The notes beneath the pieces were generated by a model. That model was not told the DNA's origin and ran no database searches. It saw only the letters and a program-made list of their open reading frames with translations. 64,000 nucleotides of DNA from Zwartia hollandica (lineage in GTDB: Bacteria > Pseudomonadota > Gammaproteobacteria > Burkholderiales > Burkholderiaceae_B). The first letter of the stretch is position 1, and every line of letters begins with the position of its first letter. Both the position numbers and the translations under genes were made by a program. Where the stretch lies: assembly GCF_019923725.1 (NCBI RefSeq), contig NZ_JAHXRI010000010.1:520636-584635 (forward strand), written 5' to 3'. Positions 7,427-48,923 of the stretch are shown here, in pieces.

Positions 7427-8317
7427 ATGACCAACGCTCACCCCGCTTCAGACCTGACCACCCGTTTCGATGGCACAGCCCGTTATGTGGCCACCGATGA
7501 CCTGAAACTAGCGGTTAATGCTGCACTGACGCTTCAGCGACCTTTGCTCATCAAGGGCGAGCCAGGAACCGGTAAAACGATGCTTGCGGAAGAGGTCGCA
7601 AGCGCCTTAGGACGGCCTTTGCTTCAATGGCATATCAAATCGACGACTAAAGCCCATCAAGGACTATACGAATACGACGCCGTATCGCGCCTGCGCGACT
7701 CGCAGCTCGGCGACGAGAAGGTCAAAGACATCCGGAACTACATCATGCAGGGCGTCCTTTGGCAAGCATTTGACTCGCCCGAGCCTGTTGTCTTGCTAAT
7801 CGACGAAATCGACAAAGCCGATATCGAGTTTCCAAACGACTTGCTGCGCGAACTCGATCAAATGGAGTTCCATGTTTACGAAACGCGCACAACGATTAAG
7901 GCTCGGCACCGCCCGTTGGTGATCATCACCTCGAACAATGAGAAAGACTTGCCAGATGCCTTTTTGCGTCGGTGCTTTTTTCACTACATCCGCTTTCCCG
8001 ATCGCGACACGCTGCGAAGCATCGTCGATGTGCACTTCCCTAACCTGCACGCCGAAGTCTTGCGCGCGGCACTCGACACGTTTTTTGCGTTACGTGAAGC
8101 GCCAGGCCTCAAGAAAAAACCATCGACGTCTGAATTTTTGGACTGGCTGCGCCTCTTGATCGCAGAGGATGTGACAGCCGCCGAAATCGATGCACACGCG
8201 GCGACATCGATCCCTATGCTTGCCGGTGCCTTACTCAAAAATGAACAAGATCTTCAACTACTCGAGCGTCTAGCCGCTGTCACACGGAACAGCACGCGTC
8301 GTCCAACGGGATCTTAA
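7427..8317 (+). CDS. MoxR-family AAA+ ATPase
   Basis: A 296-residue AAA+ ATPase with Walker A GEPGTGKT at residues 44-51, Walker B LLIDEIDKAD near 125, and sensor-1 IITSNNEKDLPDAFLRR near 165. MoxR proteins pair with von Willebrand A (VWA) proteins and act as chaperones that insert metals or cofactors, or assemble complexes. A VWA gene lies two genes downstream. The acetyltransferase gene begins 2 bases after the stop. No clear Shine-Dalgarno precedes the ATG, and a TATCAT -10-like box ends only 11 bases upstream. Confidence 0.92.
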   Translation: MTNAHPASDLTTRFDGTARYVATDDLKLAVNAALTLQRPLLIKGEPGTGKTMLAEEVASALGRPLLQWHIKSTTKAHQGLYEYDAVSRLRDSQLGDEKVKDIRNYIMQGVLWQAFDSPEPVVLLIDEIDKADIEFPNDLLRELDQMEFHVYETRTTIKARHRPLVIITSNNEKDLPDAFLRRCFFHYIRFPDRDTLRSIVDVHFPNLHAEVLRAALDTFFALREAPGLKKKPSTSEFLDWLRLLIAEDVTAAEIDAHAATSIPMLAGALLKNEQDLQLLERLAAVTRNSTRRPTGS

Positions 8318-8319
8318 GC

Positions 8320-8928
8320 ATGGCGGTTTCCCAAACTTTTCGTGTTGCGCCCGCGCCTTGCACATTGCGTGGCCACGGCCTGCGGCTGGAGCCGCTCGGC
8401 CATCAGCACCTTGATGGCCTGAAAGCCGCGGCGCGCGACGGTGAACTCTGGACGCTGCGCGTGACATCCGTTCCCGAACCGGATAAAACGGCTGCCTACA
8501 TCGATACAGCTCTGGCAGAAGGCACTCGGCTCGCATTCGCCGTCATCGATGAGTCAACCGAAACCGTCATCGGCTGTACGAGCTACCACGACATCGTCCC
8601 TGCCGTGGCGCGCCTCGAGATCGGCTACACCTGGTACGCAAAAAGTCGTCAACGTACGTACGTCAATACGGCATGCAAACTCATGCTGATGACACACGCG
8701 TTTGACACCTTGGGTGCAGCGGTCGTCGGCTGGCGTACCGATAACTTCAACTATGCCTCGCGACGCGCCATTGAAAGACTCGGTGCAAAGCTCGACGGAA
8801 TCCTGCGCCACCATGCTTTGCGGCGCGACGGTACAGTGCGCGACACCGTTATGTACAGCGTCATCGCGGGTGAATGGCCCGAAGTGCGCGATCACCTGAC
8901 CTACCAACTTAAACGCCATGCTGGTTGA
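8320..8928 (+). CDS. GNAT-family N-acetyltransferase (RimJ/RimL-like)
   Basis: A 202-residue GNAT enzyme. The N-terminus LRGHGLRLEPL and the acetyl-CoA loop region RQRTYVNTACKLMLMTHAF are typical of RimJ/RimL-type acetyltransferases; the loop has Tyr where many relatives have Gly. The substrate is unknown. It is packed between moxR (2-bp gap) and the VWA gene (11-base overlap), so it is almost certainly co-transcribed with them. That placement inside a MoxR/VWA unit is unusual and may mean it modifies a component of that system, which is inference. Confidence 0.85.
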   Translation: MAVSQTFRVAPAPCTLRGHGLRLEPLGHQHLDGLKAAARDGELWTLRVTSVPEPDKTAAYIDTALAEGTRLAFAVIDESTETVIGCTSYHDIVPAVARLEIGYTWYAKSRQRTYVNTACKLMLMTHAFDTLGAAVVGWRTDNFNYASRRAIERLGAKLDGILRHHALRRDGTVRDTVMYSVIAGEWPEVRDHLTYQLKRHAG

Positions 8929-10087
8929 TTTTTTTTATCACCTTCGCAGCCAGAAGCTTCTGGTTTCGGTCAAAGAGTATCTGACACTGCTCGAAGCGCT
9001 GTCGAGTCCCATCATGCCGCCCACACTAGAGGATTTCTATTTTCTCTCGCGCACCACGCTGATCAAGGATGAAACCTTATTCGACCGTTTTGATCGAGCC
9101 TTTGCAACGTATTACCGAAACCTAGAGCAGAAGCTACCCGCGGGTAAAAAAATTCCTCTGGACTGGCTCATCAGCAAGCTTGAAAAAAACCTCACACCAG
9201 AACAAAAAGCAAAACTAGAAAAGCACGGCTGGGACAAGCTCATGGAGATGTTCAAGGAACGACTCGAAGAGCAAAAAGCCCGTCATGAGGGCGGTAACAA
9301 ATGGATCGGTACAGGCGGTACTTCGCCGTTTGGTAATGGTGGAGTCAACCCTGAGGGCATCCGCGTGGGTGGCTCGGGCGGCGGGCGCTCGGCCATCAAG
9401 GTGTGGGACGAGCGCAATTTTCGTGATTATGACGATTCAATTGAACTGGGCACACGCAACTTTAAAGTGGCACTGCGTCGACTACGGCGCTTTGCCCGCG
9501 AAGGATCGGACTTTGAACTAGATTTGGGTGACACCATCACCAGCACCGCCCGCAATGCGGGCTATCTAGATATCAAGATGGTGCCCGAACGTCATAACAA
9601 CGTCAAAGTGTTGATGCTGCTTGACGTGGGTGGCAGCATGGATGATCACATCGCTCGTGTGGAGGAACTGTTTTCCGCGGCAAGTAGCGAGTTCCGCAAC
9701 CTCGAGGTGTATTACTTCCATAACTGCCCCTACGAGCATCTATGGAAATCCAATCGACGACGTCAGATGGAACGCTTCGAAACGTGGGATGTTCTGCGTA
9801 AGTTCAATGCAGATTGGCGTTTGATTTTTGTTGGAGACGCTACCATGAGCCCCTACGAGATTTTGCAACCAGGCGGTTCGGTCGAACACTACAACAAAGA
9901 GCCCGGCGCGGAATGGCTACAGCGCATGGTAAGTGCTTGGCCCAAATCCGTCTGGTTGAATCCCGAACCGCAAGCCTCCTGGCAGTACCGTCAGTCGATT
10001 GCCCTGATTCGCAATATCGTGCAAGACAAGATGTTCCCGGTGACGGTCTCAGGCATCGAACAGGCTATGCGACTGCTTTCGAAGTGA
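8918..10087 (+). CDS. VWA-domain protein, CoxE-like
   Basis: A 389-residue cytoplasmic protein. The N-terminal half has helical segments and a charged stretch (about 85-125), then a Gly/Ser-rich linker (125-160). The VWA domain begins near 228. Its MIDAS metal motif reads DVGGS at 236-240, with Gly in place of the first Ser of the usual DxSxS. CoxE-type VWA proteins work with MoxR-type ATPases, as CoxD/CoxE do in CO dehydrogenase maturation, so it is the expected partner of the ATPase two genes upstream. It overlaps the acetyltransferase gene by 11 bases. Confidence 0.87.
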   Translation: MLVDFFYHLRSQKLLVSVKEYLTLLEALSSPIMPPTLEDFYFLSRTTLIKDETLFDRFDRAFATYYRNLEQKLPAGKKIPLDWLISKLEKNLTPEQKAKLEKHGWDKLMEMFKERLEEQKARHEGGNKWIGTGGTSPFGNGGVNPEGIRVGGSGGGRSAIKVWDERNFRDYDDSIELGTRNFKVALRRLRRFAREGSDFELDLGDTITSTARNAGYLDIKMVPERHNNVKVLMLLDVGGSMDDHIARVEELFSAASSEFRNLEVYYFHNCPYEHLWKSNRRRQMERFETWDVLRKFNADWRLIFVGDATMSPYEILQPGGSVEHYNKEPGAEWLQRMVSAWPKSVWLNPEPQASWQYRQSIALIRNIVQDKMFPVTVSGIEQAMRLLSK

Positions 10088-43753: not shown

Positions 43754-44588
43754 TTTTTCCAAGGGGCCGAGGTTTGGCCCCTCCCCAGCGGCCATTTGCA
43801 GACAGCCGCATGAGTGTGCGCAAGGCCACCAAGAGACCGATCACCTCGGTCATCGCTGCCGGTATCCACATGGTCAGCCCGCCAATCATCTGATCGGCTT
43901 GGGCGCTCATCGCAATCGCGCGGCCGCACAAGTCAAACAAAGGGTATAAATCTCGCTCCGTGAAGGCAATCACGGCGCCCGCGACCATCTGTGGCGCCAT
44001 CGTCAAAATCGGAGAGATCACGCGGCCACCCGGCGTCATTGCCGCGGGCGGATTCGGTCGACGGTCTAGAATTAAATTCCAGTACATAAAACCGGTAATG
44101 ACAACCGACCAGTTCATGAGACGGTACAGCCGCCAGTCCAACATCGAATAAAACTGTACCGAAGGGATCAGCCAGATCACAACCAAAAATACGAACAAGG
44201 CCGGAACAAAAATGGGGTTAGTCAGAACTGACACGACCCCTCGGCCCAAAATTGTTTGATTGAACCGAAAGAGCGCACGACGCAACGTCTGTGGCAGCCC
44301 AGCGCGCATGACTGAACCGGGGTACGCTGCCATCACGATCAGAGGTCCAAGATGGTGCAGCACCAGATGTTGAATTCGGTGCATAAAAAACATACGCTCG
44401 GCGTAGTAATCGAGCATCGTGTGCATCGATAGGTACAGCATGACCCAGCCAGCCCAAAAGAATACTTGGCGTGTGCGCGATACACGACGCACGCGCACGC
44501 CCCGTACAAATAGCCACGCGCTAAGTGCGAAGCACAACATTAAGACGGGCGACGATTCCCAGGGTCTAAGCCAGCTCAGCCAATCCAT
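43743..44588 (-). CDS. cytochrome c oxidase assembly protein CtaG (caa3 type)
   Basis: A 281-residue integral membrane protein with about seven hydrophobic helices of the caa3_CtaG family: [23 protein letters not shown] (about 88-110) and a [15 protein letters not shown] stretch near the C-terminus. Members help assemble haem-copper oxidases or insert copper. No oxidase gene is near. It starts at the ATG 44588 and overlaps the end of galU. Confidence 0.85.
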
Positions 44589-44678
44589 CACACAACCTTT
44601 TAAATGATCGGAGATCAGCACACAATCTACGCTTCGAATTGTAGTATGTTGAGGTCAATCCATCTAACCGAATGTCTT

Positions 44679-46031
44679 ATGACCCACGAGCACAAATCAA
44701 CTAGCGCCTTCACTCGCCGCCGCCAGCAGATTCTAAGTTGGATGCGCAGCATGGGCGGCGGAATCGCCATCTTGCCCACGGGTCCGGAAATTGGACGCAA
44801 CCGAGATAATCATTACGCGTTTCGACACGACAGTGATTTTTTCTACCTCTCTGGCTTTACCGAGGCAAACGCTTGGTTGGTGTTGATTGCCGGTGAGACC
44901 GACAGCAGTATTTTGTTTTGCGAGCCAAAGGATCCGCTGATGGAGACGTGGACTGGCAAACGGTGGGGGCCCGATGCCGCTGCGGAGCACTTTGGTTTTG
45001 ATCGAGCCCTCCCCACAACCGACCTCGATACTCAAATCCCTTTATTGATGGCAGGTTTAAAAAACCTGTTTACCAACACCGGGCGCAGTCGGTCACCACA
45101 CTACCTAACCCAACTGCGTACTTGGCTCGAGAAAGCTCAGACAACGTTACGCGGCACGCGCGCTGCGCCTACGCAGTGGCTCGATATTGGCGAACCGCTG
45201 AGCGAGATGCGCCTCATTAAGGACGCCAGCGAACTGGACACGATGCAACGCGCAGCCACGATCTCGGCACTTGGGCATACCCGCGCTATTCAAGCTGCAC
45301 AGCCGGGCATGCACGAGTACGAGCTCGAAGCCGAACTTTTATATGTGTTTCGCAAGCACGGCGCCCAATCAGTTGCCTACGACAGTATCGTTGCCGCCGG
45401 TGCCAACGCGTGTACCTTGCACTACCGCGCGGGCAACACAGTCATGCGCGACGGCGATCTTGTTCTTATCGACGCAGGTTGCGAACTTGACGGCTACGCC
45501 TCGGACATCACACGCACCTTTCCCGCTAATGGTCATTTTTCAGCGGCTCAAAGGGCACTCTATGAAATCGTTCTTGCGGCGCAGCATGCAGCTACCGCCT
45601 GCGTATCGCCCGATCACCACTGGAATGCCGCACATGAAGCTGCGGTGCGCGTCTTAACGCAAGGGCTCCTCGATGAAAAGCTGTTAACTGGGACTCTTGA
45701 ACAAAACATTGAAACCGAAAGCTTTAAACGCTTCTACATGCATCGCACAGGGCATTGGCTGGGTATGGACGTGCATGATGTCGGAGATTATCGTACCCCT
45801 CCGGCTGGTGCAGGCGAACGCGGTTGGCGCACGTTAATGCCAGGCATGGTGCTGACGATCGAACCTGGTCTCTACGTGACCCCATCGCCAGACATACCAG
45901 AGATATTTTGGGATATTGGCATTCGAATTGAAGACGATGCAGTCGTGACGCAACACGGCTGTGAATTGCTGACTAGGGGTGTACCCGTAGAGATTAGGGA
46001 CATCGAGGACTTGATGCAGCAGAGAGATTGA
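44679..46031 (+). CDS. pepP: Xaa-Pro aminopeptidase
   Basis: M24B metallopeptidase that removes N-terminal residues before proline. 450 residues from the ATG at 44679. The N-terminal creatinase-like domain contains FRHDSDFFYLSGF. The metal ligands are in LIDAGCELDGYASDITRTF (Asp265, Asp276), HRTGHWLGMDVHDVG, LTIEPGLY and GIRIEDDAVV, all present. It is divergent from ctaG. The transglutaminase-like gene follows by 41 bp. Confidence 0.94.
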   Translation: MTHEHKSTSAFTRRRQQILSWMRSMGGGIAILPTGPEIGRNRDNHYAFRHDSDFFYLSGFTEANAWLVLIAGETDSSILFCEPKDPLMETWTGKRWGPDAAAEHFGFDRALPTTDLDTQIPLLMAGLKNLFTNTGRSRSPHYLTQLRTWLEKAQTTLRGTRAAPTQWLDIGEPLSEMRLIKDASELDTMQRAATISALGHTRAIQAAQPGMHEYELEAELLYVFRKHGAQSVAYDSIVAAGANACTLHYRAGNTVMRDGDLVLIDAGCELDGYASDITRTFPANGHFSAAQRALYEIVLAAQHAATACVSPDHHWNAAHEAAVRVLTQGLLDEKLLTGTLEQNIETESFKRFYMHRTGHWLGMDVHDVGDYRTPPAGAGERGWRTLMPGMVLTIEPGLYVTPSPDIPEIFWDIGIRIEDDAVVTQHGCELLTRGVPVEIRDIEDLMQQRD

Positions 46032-46072
46032 CGTAAAACAAAGATCTGGAATCCTTGGAACAGAGACCTATC

Positions 46073-47203
46073 ATGTTCGATCCCGTTCAATTTGAAACGT
46101 TAGGCGGCATTTGTGTTGTCACTCACAGCAAGTCGCACGCAGAAGAAATTAGTCGCGACCTAGGTAAGTGGTGCTCAGACCTGAATATTCGTCAATATCT
46201 GGATTCGACGATCTCGCAACATCAGAATCTTTGGGTTGCGCGAATGTATGCGAGCGCCTTACTCAAAGAGAGTGCGCCTAATGCTGACGTTCGCCTCCTT
46301 GCGGATAGCTTTGGGTTTTCGACCGAAAGCTCTGACGACGAACTGTTCAAAGAAATCGTATTTTCGAAGGCGCTCAGTCCAGTTGCCTCGAGTTTTCCAA
46401 GTATTGAGGAATTTTTCGCAGCCCTGCGAGTGCGCAAAAACATTGCACTCATCGCACGACGCACCGAGTTGTGGTTCAGCATTGACGAAGATACGCGGCC
46501 CTCTACGCATTGGCGACAACTCAGTGGAGACGGTTTTGCATTGATCGCCGGTCAGCCGCTTAGCCAAGCGCTGGAGCTCGCACTTTGCCCCGATGCCTCT
46601 GGGCAAAGTTACGGCTTCGCCTGTCGGCAAGCTTCTGAGTACCTCATGCTTGCGGGCTTAGCGCAAGAGCTCGAGACGACCAACCCACAACTTCTAGAAA
46701 CGATCGAGCGCCGCTGGAGTGAACAACCACTCCGAGGTGATACCTTCATTAACGCATTTTTAACTGAGCGTGGCTCTCGCGAACATCCATTTCCAAAACA
46801 TCATTACGTTCCCGGCAGTCGAGTTTGGTTCAAAAACCCGGATGAGAACTCCACAGATGTGGATGGGTTTGAGGGCTCTTGGGTGGTGTACATGGGCGCC
46901 GGAAAGTTTGTGAATCTGTGGGACAAAAAAAGTCCCTACGACATTGAGACAAAATGTTTTGAGGTGTATCACTGGCGCCACTGCGTCGAGCGCACAGACG
47001 CTGGCATCTTGCGCATGAATGAAGATCGTGTCAAAGACATGATGGCAGCATCAATGGCTGATCCTGCAGCTAAACATGAGATCTTGCATCAAATGATGGA
47101 GTACCGTGCCCCCGTGCGCGTCTACGGTGAAGGTGGCTGTATCGATCTCACCCGTGAACAGGCCCGCTGGGTCTGTCCTCAAACAACCAACATCAGTATT
47201 TAG
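46073..47203 (+). CDS. transglutaminase-like protein, distant Tgl (spore transglutaminase) relative
   Basis: A 376-residue protein, no signal peptide or membrane helix. From memory, residues 109-283 align in order with Bacillus subtilis Tgl: SIEEFFAALRVRKNIAL (109-125) with its SIAEL...LRMNIV, HWRQLSGDGF with YWRVSPEGAL, PLSQALELA with PPSKAIRDIA, YGFACRQA (Cys184) with YAFECATA (catalytic Cys116), and PGSRVWFKNPD...GSWVVYMGAGK with LGDCLYFKNPE...GENVILLGEDK. By the ungapped end of this alignment, Tgl Glu187 is Ser269 and His200 is Leu282. It therefore keeps the Cys but lacks the known dyad partners. It has ~70 extra N-terminal residues and a different C-terminus. The ATG at 46073 is 41 bp after pepP. 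Confidence 0.6.
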   Translation: MFDPVQFETLGGICVVTHSKSHAEEISRDLGKWCSDLNIRQYLDSTISQHQNLWVARMYASALLKESAPNADVRLLADSFGFSTESSDDELFKEIVFSKALSPVASSFPSIEEFFAALRVRKNIALIARRTELWFSIDEDTRPSTHWRQLSGDGFALIAGQPLSQALELALCPDASGQSYGFACRQASEYLMLAGLAQELETTNPQLLETIERRWSEQPLRGDTFINAFLTERGSREHPFPKHHYVPGSRVWFKNPDENSTDVDGFEGSWVVYMGAGKFVNLWDKKSPYDIETKCFEVYHWRHCVERTDAGILRMNEDRVKDMMAASMADPAAKHEILHQMMEYRAPVRVYGEGGCIDLTREQARWVCPQTTNISI

Positions 47204-47643
47204 CCTTTTAGATCTAGGCCATCTAGCAACCCAAGCGCGGTCCAAACATAAATCACGACCATCGCAATCCCGAACATGAAGGCGACGGTACCGATCAACA
47301 GCGTGAAACTCGCCACCAGCACCGGACCCCAGCCACTCGGCTTGTCTCGCACAAGGCCTGGGTTATACAAAGCGTCGAAGCGCTCATCACGCATCAGGCA
47401 CAAGACGATTGCCTCGACGAACCCATCTAACGTTGGGATAAATAATAAAAAAAACGCTGGGTTTTCCCACCAAGTCTCGGCAAAACTACAAGCAACCATC
47501 AGAGACACGGAAATTAGGGAAACAAGCCAAGCGTAGGGGCGCTTCAAATACCACCAATGTGCGCCTACACAGCCCAAGACTGCGGCCAGAAGCCCAACCG
47601 TGACCTTGTTTCGAAATGCAGGCGCTGCTTGCTGAATAGACAT
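47200..47643 (-). CDS. TM2-domain membrane protein
   Basis: A 147-residue membrane protein with four hydrophobic segments. The first two form a TM2-like hairpin: FRNKVTVGLLAAVLGCVGAHWWYLKRPYAW (about 10-39) matches the TM2 pattern of Gly-rich helix, Gly-Ala-His and Tyr-Leu. The function of TM2 proteins in bacteria is unknown. It converges on the transglutaminase-like gene and shares 4 bases (TTAG) with its stop. Confidence 0.78.
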   Translation of the reverse strand: MSIQQAAPAFRNKVTVGLLAAVLGCVGAHWWYLKRPYAWLVSLISVSLMVACSFAETWWENPAFFLLFIPTLDGFVEAIVLCLMRDERFDALYNPGLVRDKPSGWGPVLVASFTLLIGTVAFMFGIAMVVIYVWTALGLLDGLDLKG

Positions 47644-47739
47644 AGGACCTGAAAAAAATGAAAATCACTTCCGCGGAATCCGAAGAATAGCCTATCGGCA
47701 TCTAAGGATTCAACTAAAGACCTTAGTCTGCGCCCACGA

Positions 47740-47745
47740 TAGAAT
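47740..47745 (+). promoter_or_regulatory. -10-like box giving a possible leaderless ubiH-type mRNA
   Basis: TAGAAT ends only 5 bases before the ATG at 47751, so a transcript from it would start at or next to the start codon. The gene has no Shine-Dalgarno, which fits leaderless translation. There is no clear -35. Confidence 0.35.
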
Positions 47746-47750
47746 GCGGT

Positions 47751-48923
47751 ATGCCCTCCAATGACTCCACGTGCGAATTCGATGTTGCCATCTTAGGTGG
47801 CGGCCCGGTCGGGTCCGCCTTGGCTTTGCTGCTCGCCAAATTGAGCCCCGCACCAGAGCGCATCGTTTTATTACAGTCAGATTCAGCCTCTCGTTATGGC
47901 TACGCGCCAGAAACTGACCCTAGAGTCCTAGCGGTCAATCACGGCAGTCGCGTTCTGCTCGAATCGTTGAATGCGTGGCCAGAACGGTGCGCAGACATTC
48001 GAACCATTCACGTCTCACAACGTGGTCGGCTTGGAAGCACGCTCATCAAACAGACAGACTTTGGCGTACCGCAGCTAGGTTGCGTGGTGCGATACGGCGC
48101 GCTTATCCAACAGCTTACCCATGCGGTTAAGGCAAGCGGTGTCTCCGTGCGCCACGCAGCGACGGCGGAAATCGTTTGTCAACACGCCGCCACCGTAGAG
48201 CTCTCGCATGGACAAGACACTCTGCATGCGGCAATCGCTGTGCAGGCAGACGGAGGGAATCCTACCGAAATTCGTCGTACCTATAAACAAATGGCCTTAC
48301 TCACCAAAGTGCGGGCCAGTATTCCGCGTGCGGGTTGGGCGTTCGAACGGTTTACCCGTGAAGGTCCGTTAGCCGTTTTGCCGCACCCAGAGGCAGCCGA
48401 TCAACAGTCCGTCGTCTGGTGCTGTACACCCGAGCGCGCCGAACAGCTACACAAGCTCAACCCTAAAGACTTTTCACTGGCGTTGACACAAGCGTTCGGT
48501 ACACGACTGGGCTCGCTCGAGGTCCAGGATAAGGTGTCTATGTTTCCGCTGGCGTTAAGCGTGCGCGCCACTCCCGTTGATGGCCGCATCATCGCCATTG
48601 GTAACGCGGCACAAACGCTTCATCCTGTCGCGGGTCAAGGCCTCAATCTGGGGTTGCGAGACGCAGCAAGCCTGGCCATTGCCTTGCGTGACTGGATGGT
48701 GCTCTCGAACCAGCAACCCTCCGCCGCACTCAGGCAATTTTTACAAATGCGTCAACCTGATCGCCAGCTCACCACCAGACTGACAGATTTAATGTCGCGC
48801 GTATTCACCTCGGGTTGGCCCGTGGTGGAACATTCCGCCGGACTAGCCTTGCTAGCGATGGATATGCTTCCAGGGCTGCGCGCACCCTTAGCGAGACACC
48901 TGTTGCAAGGTTTAAGGCTTTAG
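47751..48923 (+). CDS. FAD-dependent monooxygenase, UbiH/UbiF/COQ6 family
   Basis: A 390-residue flavoprotein hydroxylase. FAD-binding VAILGGGPVGSALALLLAKL lies at about 9-28. The C-terminal FAD site GNAAQTLHPVAGQGLNLGLRDA is near 282-303. The family hydroxylates the ubiquinone ring; whether this is C5, C6 or C8 (UbiI, UbiH, UbiF) cannot be told. No Shine-Dalgarno is seen before the ATG. dusB follows by 46 bp. Confidence 0.9.
   Translation: MPSNDSTCEFDVAILGGGPVGSALALLLAKLSPAPERIVLLQSDSASRYGYAPETDPRVLAVNHGSRVLLESLNAWPERCADIRTIHVSQRGRLGSTLIKQTDFGVPQLGCVVRYGALIQQLTHAVKASGVSVRHAATAEIVCQHAATVELSHGQDTLHAAIAVQADGGNPTEIRRTYKQMALLTKVRASIPRAGWAFERFTREGPLAVLPHPEAADQQSVVWCCTPERAEQLHKLNPKDFSLALTQAFGTRLGSLEVQDKVSMFPLALSVRATPVDGRIIAIGNAAQTLHPVAGQGLNLGLRDAASLAIALRDWMVLSNQQPSAALRQFLQMRQPDRQLTTRLTDLMSRVFTSGWPVVEHSAGLALLAMDMLPGLRAPLARHLLQGLRL

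Follow-up and report, generated by a model that had tools for sequence, protein, structure and literature searches.

A homologue of the Bacillus transglutaminase Tgl is encoded in the window (the whole 64,000-nucleotide stretch of DNA analysed here), and within the genomes sampled this TGL protein is almost confined to bacteria with cyanophycin synthesis genes. A link between the protein and cyanophycin is very probable. Its most plausible role, to which we give a probability of roughly 0.4, would be that of an accessory cysteine amidase or transamidase serving cyanophycin or its granule; the reaction, the substrate, the role of Glu267 and catalysis itself are what we infer. The main interest of the locus is the co-occurrence and the occasional operon linkage with cyanophycin genes, and not the adjoining pepP and TM2 genes or the residues His303 and Cys304, all of which the earlier note had brought forward.

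The gene sits on contig C2 of a 3.2 Mb genome. Its reading frame begins with the ATG at 46073, a start backed by close relatives with the same start position, and ends with the stop codon at 47201-47203. The gene, its N-terminal extension and its immediate neighbours are:

46073..47203, + strand: TGL-fold protein (P0001), 376 amino acids
46073..46327, + strand: N-terminal extra region, about residues 1-85, an alpha/beta segment preceding the Pfam TGL match, which starts at residue 85
44604..46031, + strand: pepP-like Xaa-Pro aminopeptidase, upstream, ending 41 nt before the ATG of the TGL gene
47200..47643, - strand: TM2-like protein, downstream and convergent, its end overlapping the TGL gene by 4 nt

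The identity of the upstream neighbour is taken from its orthologue at locus L025, which matches Peptidase_M24 and AMP_N, and the downstream protein reaches 27.1 bits with Pfam TM2, slightly under the cut-off of 27.9. These neighbours, to which the earlier note had attached weight, lose their significance on comparison: pepP is the upstream gene at 6 of the 81 loci and TM2 the downstream gene at 5, all of them near relatives of the window, and a functional link to either was rejected on this ground. A Pfam tally of the adjacent ORFs (115/154) has no dominant family, the largest having at most 5 members. DUF1854 and an ABC transporter, with 3 members each in this tally, correspond to NCBIfam families associated with cyanophycin metabolism (NF052234, NF052233), and it was these two rows that gave the cyanophycin lead. 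Over 44300-48200, predicted promoters and terminators were no more numerous than in shuffled sequences. As to a mobile origin, tblastn gave no match at E 0.001 in the two collections covered, plasmids and phages.

The window protein is a Tgl homologue by Pfam, by family profile and by fold. Pfam TGL (PF20085) covers residues 85-311 (E=7e-22; score 78.3 bits, cut-off 23.7), and all 71 sequences of A2 match the same family, whose seed may itself contain such sequences. A more independent test is the search of the PDB with a profile of the 71 relatives, which retrieved the Tgl chains 7c9j (5.8e-12) and 4p8i (4e-5); the window sequence alone retrieved 7c9j only, with E=0.28. The AlphaFold2 model (pLDDT 94.7) has a Tgl fold, the same two structures being its only Foldseek matches under 0.001 (7c9j, 4.4e-8; 4p8i, 6.1e-8). 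Their TM-scores are 0.65 and 0.59 by target and 0.38 and 0.41 by query, with an rmsd of 6.7-6.8, and this loose fit may be expected from the extra N- and C-terminal parts. Cys184 opens a helix in the model, Ser269 lies within a strand, and the N-terminal extra region consists of strands 13-17, 43-50 and 53-60 and helices 20-36 and 62-67. The relationship to Tgl that the earlier note had proposed thus stands, and a chance alignment is ruled out by the PDB profile and Foldseek matches. The protein does not reach the Bacillus-type equivalog NF002869 in the NCBIfam scan (20.5 bits against a cut-off of 307).

Residue conservation was counted in two sets. The pattern-found set comprises the window and the best 80 named relatives of 435 confirmed stretches (81 sequences), collected with the motifs G[FY]EGSWVxY and R[VL]WF[RK]NPD. 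Selection by these motifs guarantees that the columns inside them are conserved, so a second set was assembled without the motifs. An even draw of 349 genomes from the order gave 37 Pfam TGL matches; without the one in genome G714, 36 remain, the window's included. Of these, 28 belong to the window's own subfamily (subfamily 1; one is truncated at a contig end) and 8 to a subfamily 2, the two subfamilies being 17-21% identical. The positions concerned are:

46619..46621, + strand: codon of Ala183, at Tgl Glu115; Ser or Ala in subfamily 1, Gly in subfamily 2
46622..46624, + strand: codon of Cys184, at the Tgl nucleophile Cys116, facing the Cys of the FEC motif in the alignment
46871..46873, + strand: codon of Glu267, at Tgl Arg185, two residues ahead of the Glu187 site; invariant
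46877..46879, + strand: codon of Ser269, at Tgl Glu187 (QGEN); invariant (27/27 and 8/8)
46916..46918, + strand: codon of Leu282, at Tgl His200; subfamily 1 has Phe or Leu here, subfamily 2 Tyr or Phe
46961..46975, + strand: Glu297-x-x-His300-Trp301; Glu297 and Trp301 invariant in both subfamilies (27/27 and 8/8)
47138..47155, + strand: C-terminal motif Cys356-Ile-Asp358-x-x-Arg361

Cys184, which had been placed at Tgl Cys116 from the sequence alone, is indeed found there in the alignment and is Cys in 81/81 sequences of the pattern-found set and in 36/36 of the genome draw (28/28 in subfamily 1 and 8/8 in subfamily 2). Since it stands opposite the Cys of the FEC motif, Ala183 falls on the Glu115 site. 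The replacements of Glu115 by Ala183 and of Glu187 by Ser269 are likewise borne out by the alignments with the PDB chains, and that of His200 by Leu282 rests on an ungapped extension of the 7c9j alignment block, two residues past the block end. In B. subtilis Tgl, the catalytic dyad is Cys116 and Glu187, and Glu115 is able to substitute for Glu187; E115A, C116A and H200A have no activity and E187A retains about 60% (accessible part of PMC6490927). Measured against the Bacillus enzyme, therefore, the window protein has the nucleophilic Cys and has neither Glu187 nor its substitute Glu115, nor His200 of the back entrance.

Glu267 is present in all 27 subfamily 1 sequences reaching the position and in 8/8 of subfamily 2. 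His300 is His in 27/27 of subfamily 1 and Gln in 8/8 of subfamily 2 in the genome draw, and the 81 sequences of the pattern-found set have 72 His, 7 Tyr and 2 Gln in this column. Cys356 and Asp358 are found in 27/27 of subfamily 1 (Cys356 in 79/81 of the pattern-found set) and are absent from subfamily 2, Arg361 alone being common to both. The C-terminal Cys and His residues remarked on in the earlier note are present in the sequence, but His303 (53/81) and Cys304 (9/81) are not conserved in the pattern-found set, and as new active-site residues these two are ruled out.

Both the Glu and the His sites of Tgl are replaced in both subfamilies, with constant new residues standing instead, so that, as judged from the alignments, their loss is old and fixed. 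The conservation of Cys184, together with Glu267 and Ser269 in 35/35 sequences over the two subfamilies, favours a rebuilt rather than a decayed site, one of the possibilities raised beforehand. Substitution rates between close relatives are consistent with this: L025 compared with L026 and L027 gives a dN of about 0.026 and a dS of about 0.37-0.40, and for the window against L025 dN is 0.19 with dS saturated. Decay of a single gene is ruled out by the constancy of Cys184 and the low dN/dS, and the active-site change is a trait of the whole family. Four public MAG records with a TGL gene (L026, L028, L032 and L036) are titled Bordetella parapertussis and on the tree group with other Alcaligenaceae or with unclassified betaproteobacterial MAGs, and with the window; these titles look like mislabels.

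A Tgl relative in such an organism had been thought unexpected. It is no oddity: besides the 435 confirmed stretches, TGL (PF20085) is present in 35 of the 349 genomes of the order, from 15 families. When 398 genomes were drawn evenly from the whole phylum, 4 had TGL, all from the window's order. CphA (PF18921) and the DUF1854 protein are present in 128 and 116 of the 349 genomes, respectively. CphA occurs in 33/35 genomes with TGL against 95/314 others (p=6.5e-14) and DUF1854 in 31/35 against 85/314 (p=1e-12), with genomes treated as independent in both comparisons. Counted by genus, CphA is found in 21/23 genera with TGL against 39/125 without it (p=6e-8, genera treated as independent), and when the draw is restricted to the window's own family, in 5/5 genomes with TGL against 1/6 without (p=0.015). 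The 35 TGL genomes comprise 28 with subfamily 1 (27 with CphA), 6 with subfamily 2 only (all 6 with CphA), and G714. The two exceptions are G714, whose protein is of a different kind, and G568, whose subfamily 1 copy is cut by a contig end. In the window's genus, CphA is present in all 32 genomes, so that the 5 of them without TGL are uninformative on the co-occurrence. Another genome of this genus, G022, carries two divergent TGL copies (L006/L029 and L042), which share 51% and 42% identity with the window protein. Only 33 of the 128 cyanophycin genomes of the draw have TGL and 95 are without a match, and a two-subfamily profile found nothing in 80 of these 95 in a search run without a positive control. 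TGL is therefore optional in cyanophycin genomes.

Physical linkage is seen at some loci: of the 28 that carry subfamily 1 in the draw, 4, from 4 families, adjoin cph genes. In G538 the order on one strand is cphA-cphA'-TGL, TGL following cphA' with a 4-nt overlap, and in G748 it is ABC-DUF1854-TGL, likewise on a single strand, the genes lying 6 and 22 nt apart. In G733 TGL is convergent with an adjoining cphA', and in G673 with an adjoining DUF1854 gene. A rough binomial estimate puts the probability of this count by chance at 0.001-0.003; most loci were covered for about 6-7 kb per side, G511 and G568 by short contigs only, and the window's own locus was excluded. At 8 of the best 80 named loci, cph genes lie in flanks of up to 5 kb; one of the 8, L055, and G538 are a single contig. 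Mapping the linkage onto a quick tree of 109 sequences (with SH-aLRT support only and several long branches) takes no fewer than 6 changes, compatible both with the genes having come together repeatedly and with several losses of a single ancient linkage. No locus is cph-linked in the clade of the window, which fills 30 rows of this tree. The window genome itself carries three CphA-type genes and an ABC-DUF1854 pair on contigs other than C2, and its main cph cluster is on C18 (L118). Apart from the C18 cluster, a further CphA-type gene on C23 directly precedes a malate synthase G gene (L119:5389-7557 and 7654-9864). In the accessible literature on cyanophycin together with transglutaminase or DUF1854, no report of a link between cyanophycin and TGL was found; the accessible part of a Polynucleobacter study names transglutaminase-domain proteins (PMC7522526).

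From these observations a function can be proposed. A branch of Tgl-fold proteins, here found in one (beta)proteobacterial order, would serve nitrogen storage in cyanophycin, the protein acting in the cytoplasm as a cysteine amidase or transamidase. The amide attacked by Cys184 would probably be that of the beta-aspartyl-arginine side chain in cyanophycin, or else one in a granule protein; a thioester would form at Cys184, as in Tgl, and the acyl group would then be handed to water or to an amine. With both base glutamates of Tgl lost, the leading candidate for a new acid/base, or for binding of the arginine side chain, is the invariant Glu267. In subfamily 1 the front-entrance residues of Tgl are rewritten (Arg185 to Glu267, Asn188 to Trp270 and Tyr171 to Trp252, the equivalents being placed via the 7c9j alignment with a constant offset of one), and a conserved acidic Glu267 at this front, glutamine-side entrance would suit an arginine-rich substrate. 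Catalysis by Cys184 is reasonably likely, and any single named reaction is doubtful. A second route in the chemistry of cyanophycin, in which its beta-aspartyl-arginine amides are hydrolysed or transamidated by a cysteine enzyme of Tgl fold whose acid/base has moved to another place, is rather unlikely. If it existed, this route would supply part of the missing degradation, or primers, or granule cross-links, in betaproteobacteria without a recognisable cyanophycinase; and activity of the protein would mean that a Tgl-fold site can function although its Glu dyad is missing. Members of subfamily 2 (L108, L109, L110, L111, L112, L113, L114 and L115) have about 420-450 amino acids, and in 5 of 7 members checked the N-terminus is strongly hydrophobic and signal-peptide-like. 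Such N-termini do not fit simply with a cytoplasmic polymer and count against the proposed function.

The loss of the Tgl base residues may also be read as loss of catalysis, with the protein binding or organising the cyanophycin granule or its synthetase and the conserved residues lining a binding groove. By analogy, the finding that mutation of Glu115 or of His200 alone abolishes the activity of B. subtilis Tgl (accessible part of PMC6490927) would speak for this, as does the optional, accessory nature of the gene in cyanophycin genomes. A pure binder would, however, be expected to lose the Cys somewhere, and in two very divergent subfamilies Cys184 is constant throughout; such a catalytically dead protein is thus a less than likely explanation. 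At the other extreme, the protein might remain a true transglutaminase that cross-links proteins like Tgl through a rebuilt site, with an indirect connection to cyanophycin such as shared nitrogen-rich lifestyles. Homology, fold and nucleophile are all as in Tgl, and subfamily 2 keeps Tyr (7/8) and Asn (7/8) at two of the front-entrance positions. The rewritten entrance of subfamily 1 and the replacement of the catalytic Glu187 by Ser269 nevertheless argue against it, and the adjacency to cph genes in several branches sits poorly with an indirect connection, so that this explanation is quite improbable.

A further alternative is a lineage-specific depolymerase, or a primer-making hydrolase, that cuts the poly-aspartate backbone or the side-chain amide. 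In the accessible part of a survey by Sharon et al. (PMC10206079), 903 of the 1,614 genomes with CphA1 are betaproteobacterial, and a recognisable cyanophycinase is present in only 2.8% of the 903, a scarcity that these authors call unanticipated and for which they propose unknown isozymes. The same-strand overlap of TGL with cphA' in one genome (G538) would suit such a role. Known degradation enzymes were compared in 80 genomes, namely the 35 with TGL and 45 of the 95 with CphA and without TGL, chosen non-randomly by taking the genera of TGL genomes first and then going down the list. Cyanophycinase was over the cut-off in 2/35 genomes with TGL against 7/45 without (p=0.29) and IaaA in 4/35 against 13/45 (p=0.10); IadA was over the cut-off in 0/80, with weaker matches in 21. 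All three enzymes were missing in 28/33 genomes with TGL and CphA against 30/45 without TGL (p=0.11, not significant), and the window genome has none of the three over the cut-off. The idea that TGL genomes are poorer in known degradation enzymes than other cyanophycin genomes is thus unsupported, and a hidden cyanophycinase of this kind is unlikely. Since 95 of the 128 CphA genomes have no TGL match, the protein is a candidate for one lineage-specific part of degradation only, not a general answer. Because this conserved cysteine protein accompanies the cyanophycin system and sometimes shares its operon, the question of the missing cyanophycinase becomes directly testable.

Among known systems, the cyanophycin-degrading CphB/E/I (S51), IaaA and IadA have only the proposed pathway in common with the window protein: the Pfam and NCBIfam scans list TGL families for it, and neither gave a match to S51 (cyanophycinase, TIGR02069) or to the other two. 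The G714 protein (L116:551-1888), in which an eCIS-core (PF13699, 1.4e-30) is fused to a TGL domain (PF20085, 2e-13), shares that domain with the window protein and resembles an effector of the injected type whose Tgl site seems closer to the classical one; unlike the window protein, it has GEN and GH, with Glu and His at Tgl-like places as seen by eye, and its genome has no CphA match. The closest comparison is with the Bacillus spore-coat protein-glutamine gamma-glutamyltransferase Tgl (4p8i, 7c9j; PF20085). The two are alike in fold, in the order of conserved blocks and in the Cys nucleophile at a helix start, and they have in common the Arg121 region and the PGD..F.NPD and YLG blocks. They differ in that the window protein replaces the Glu115, Glu187 and His200 sites, has a rewritten substrate entrance and bears added N- and C-terminal parts. 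Finally, Bacillus Tgl goes with spore formation, whereas the family of the window protein is linked to cyanophycin genes instead.
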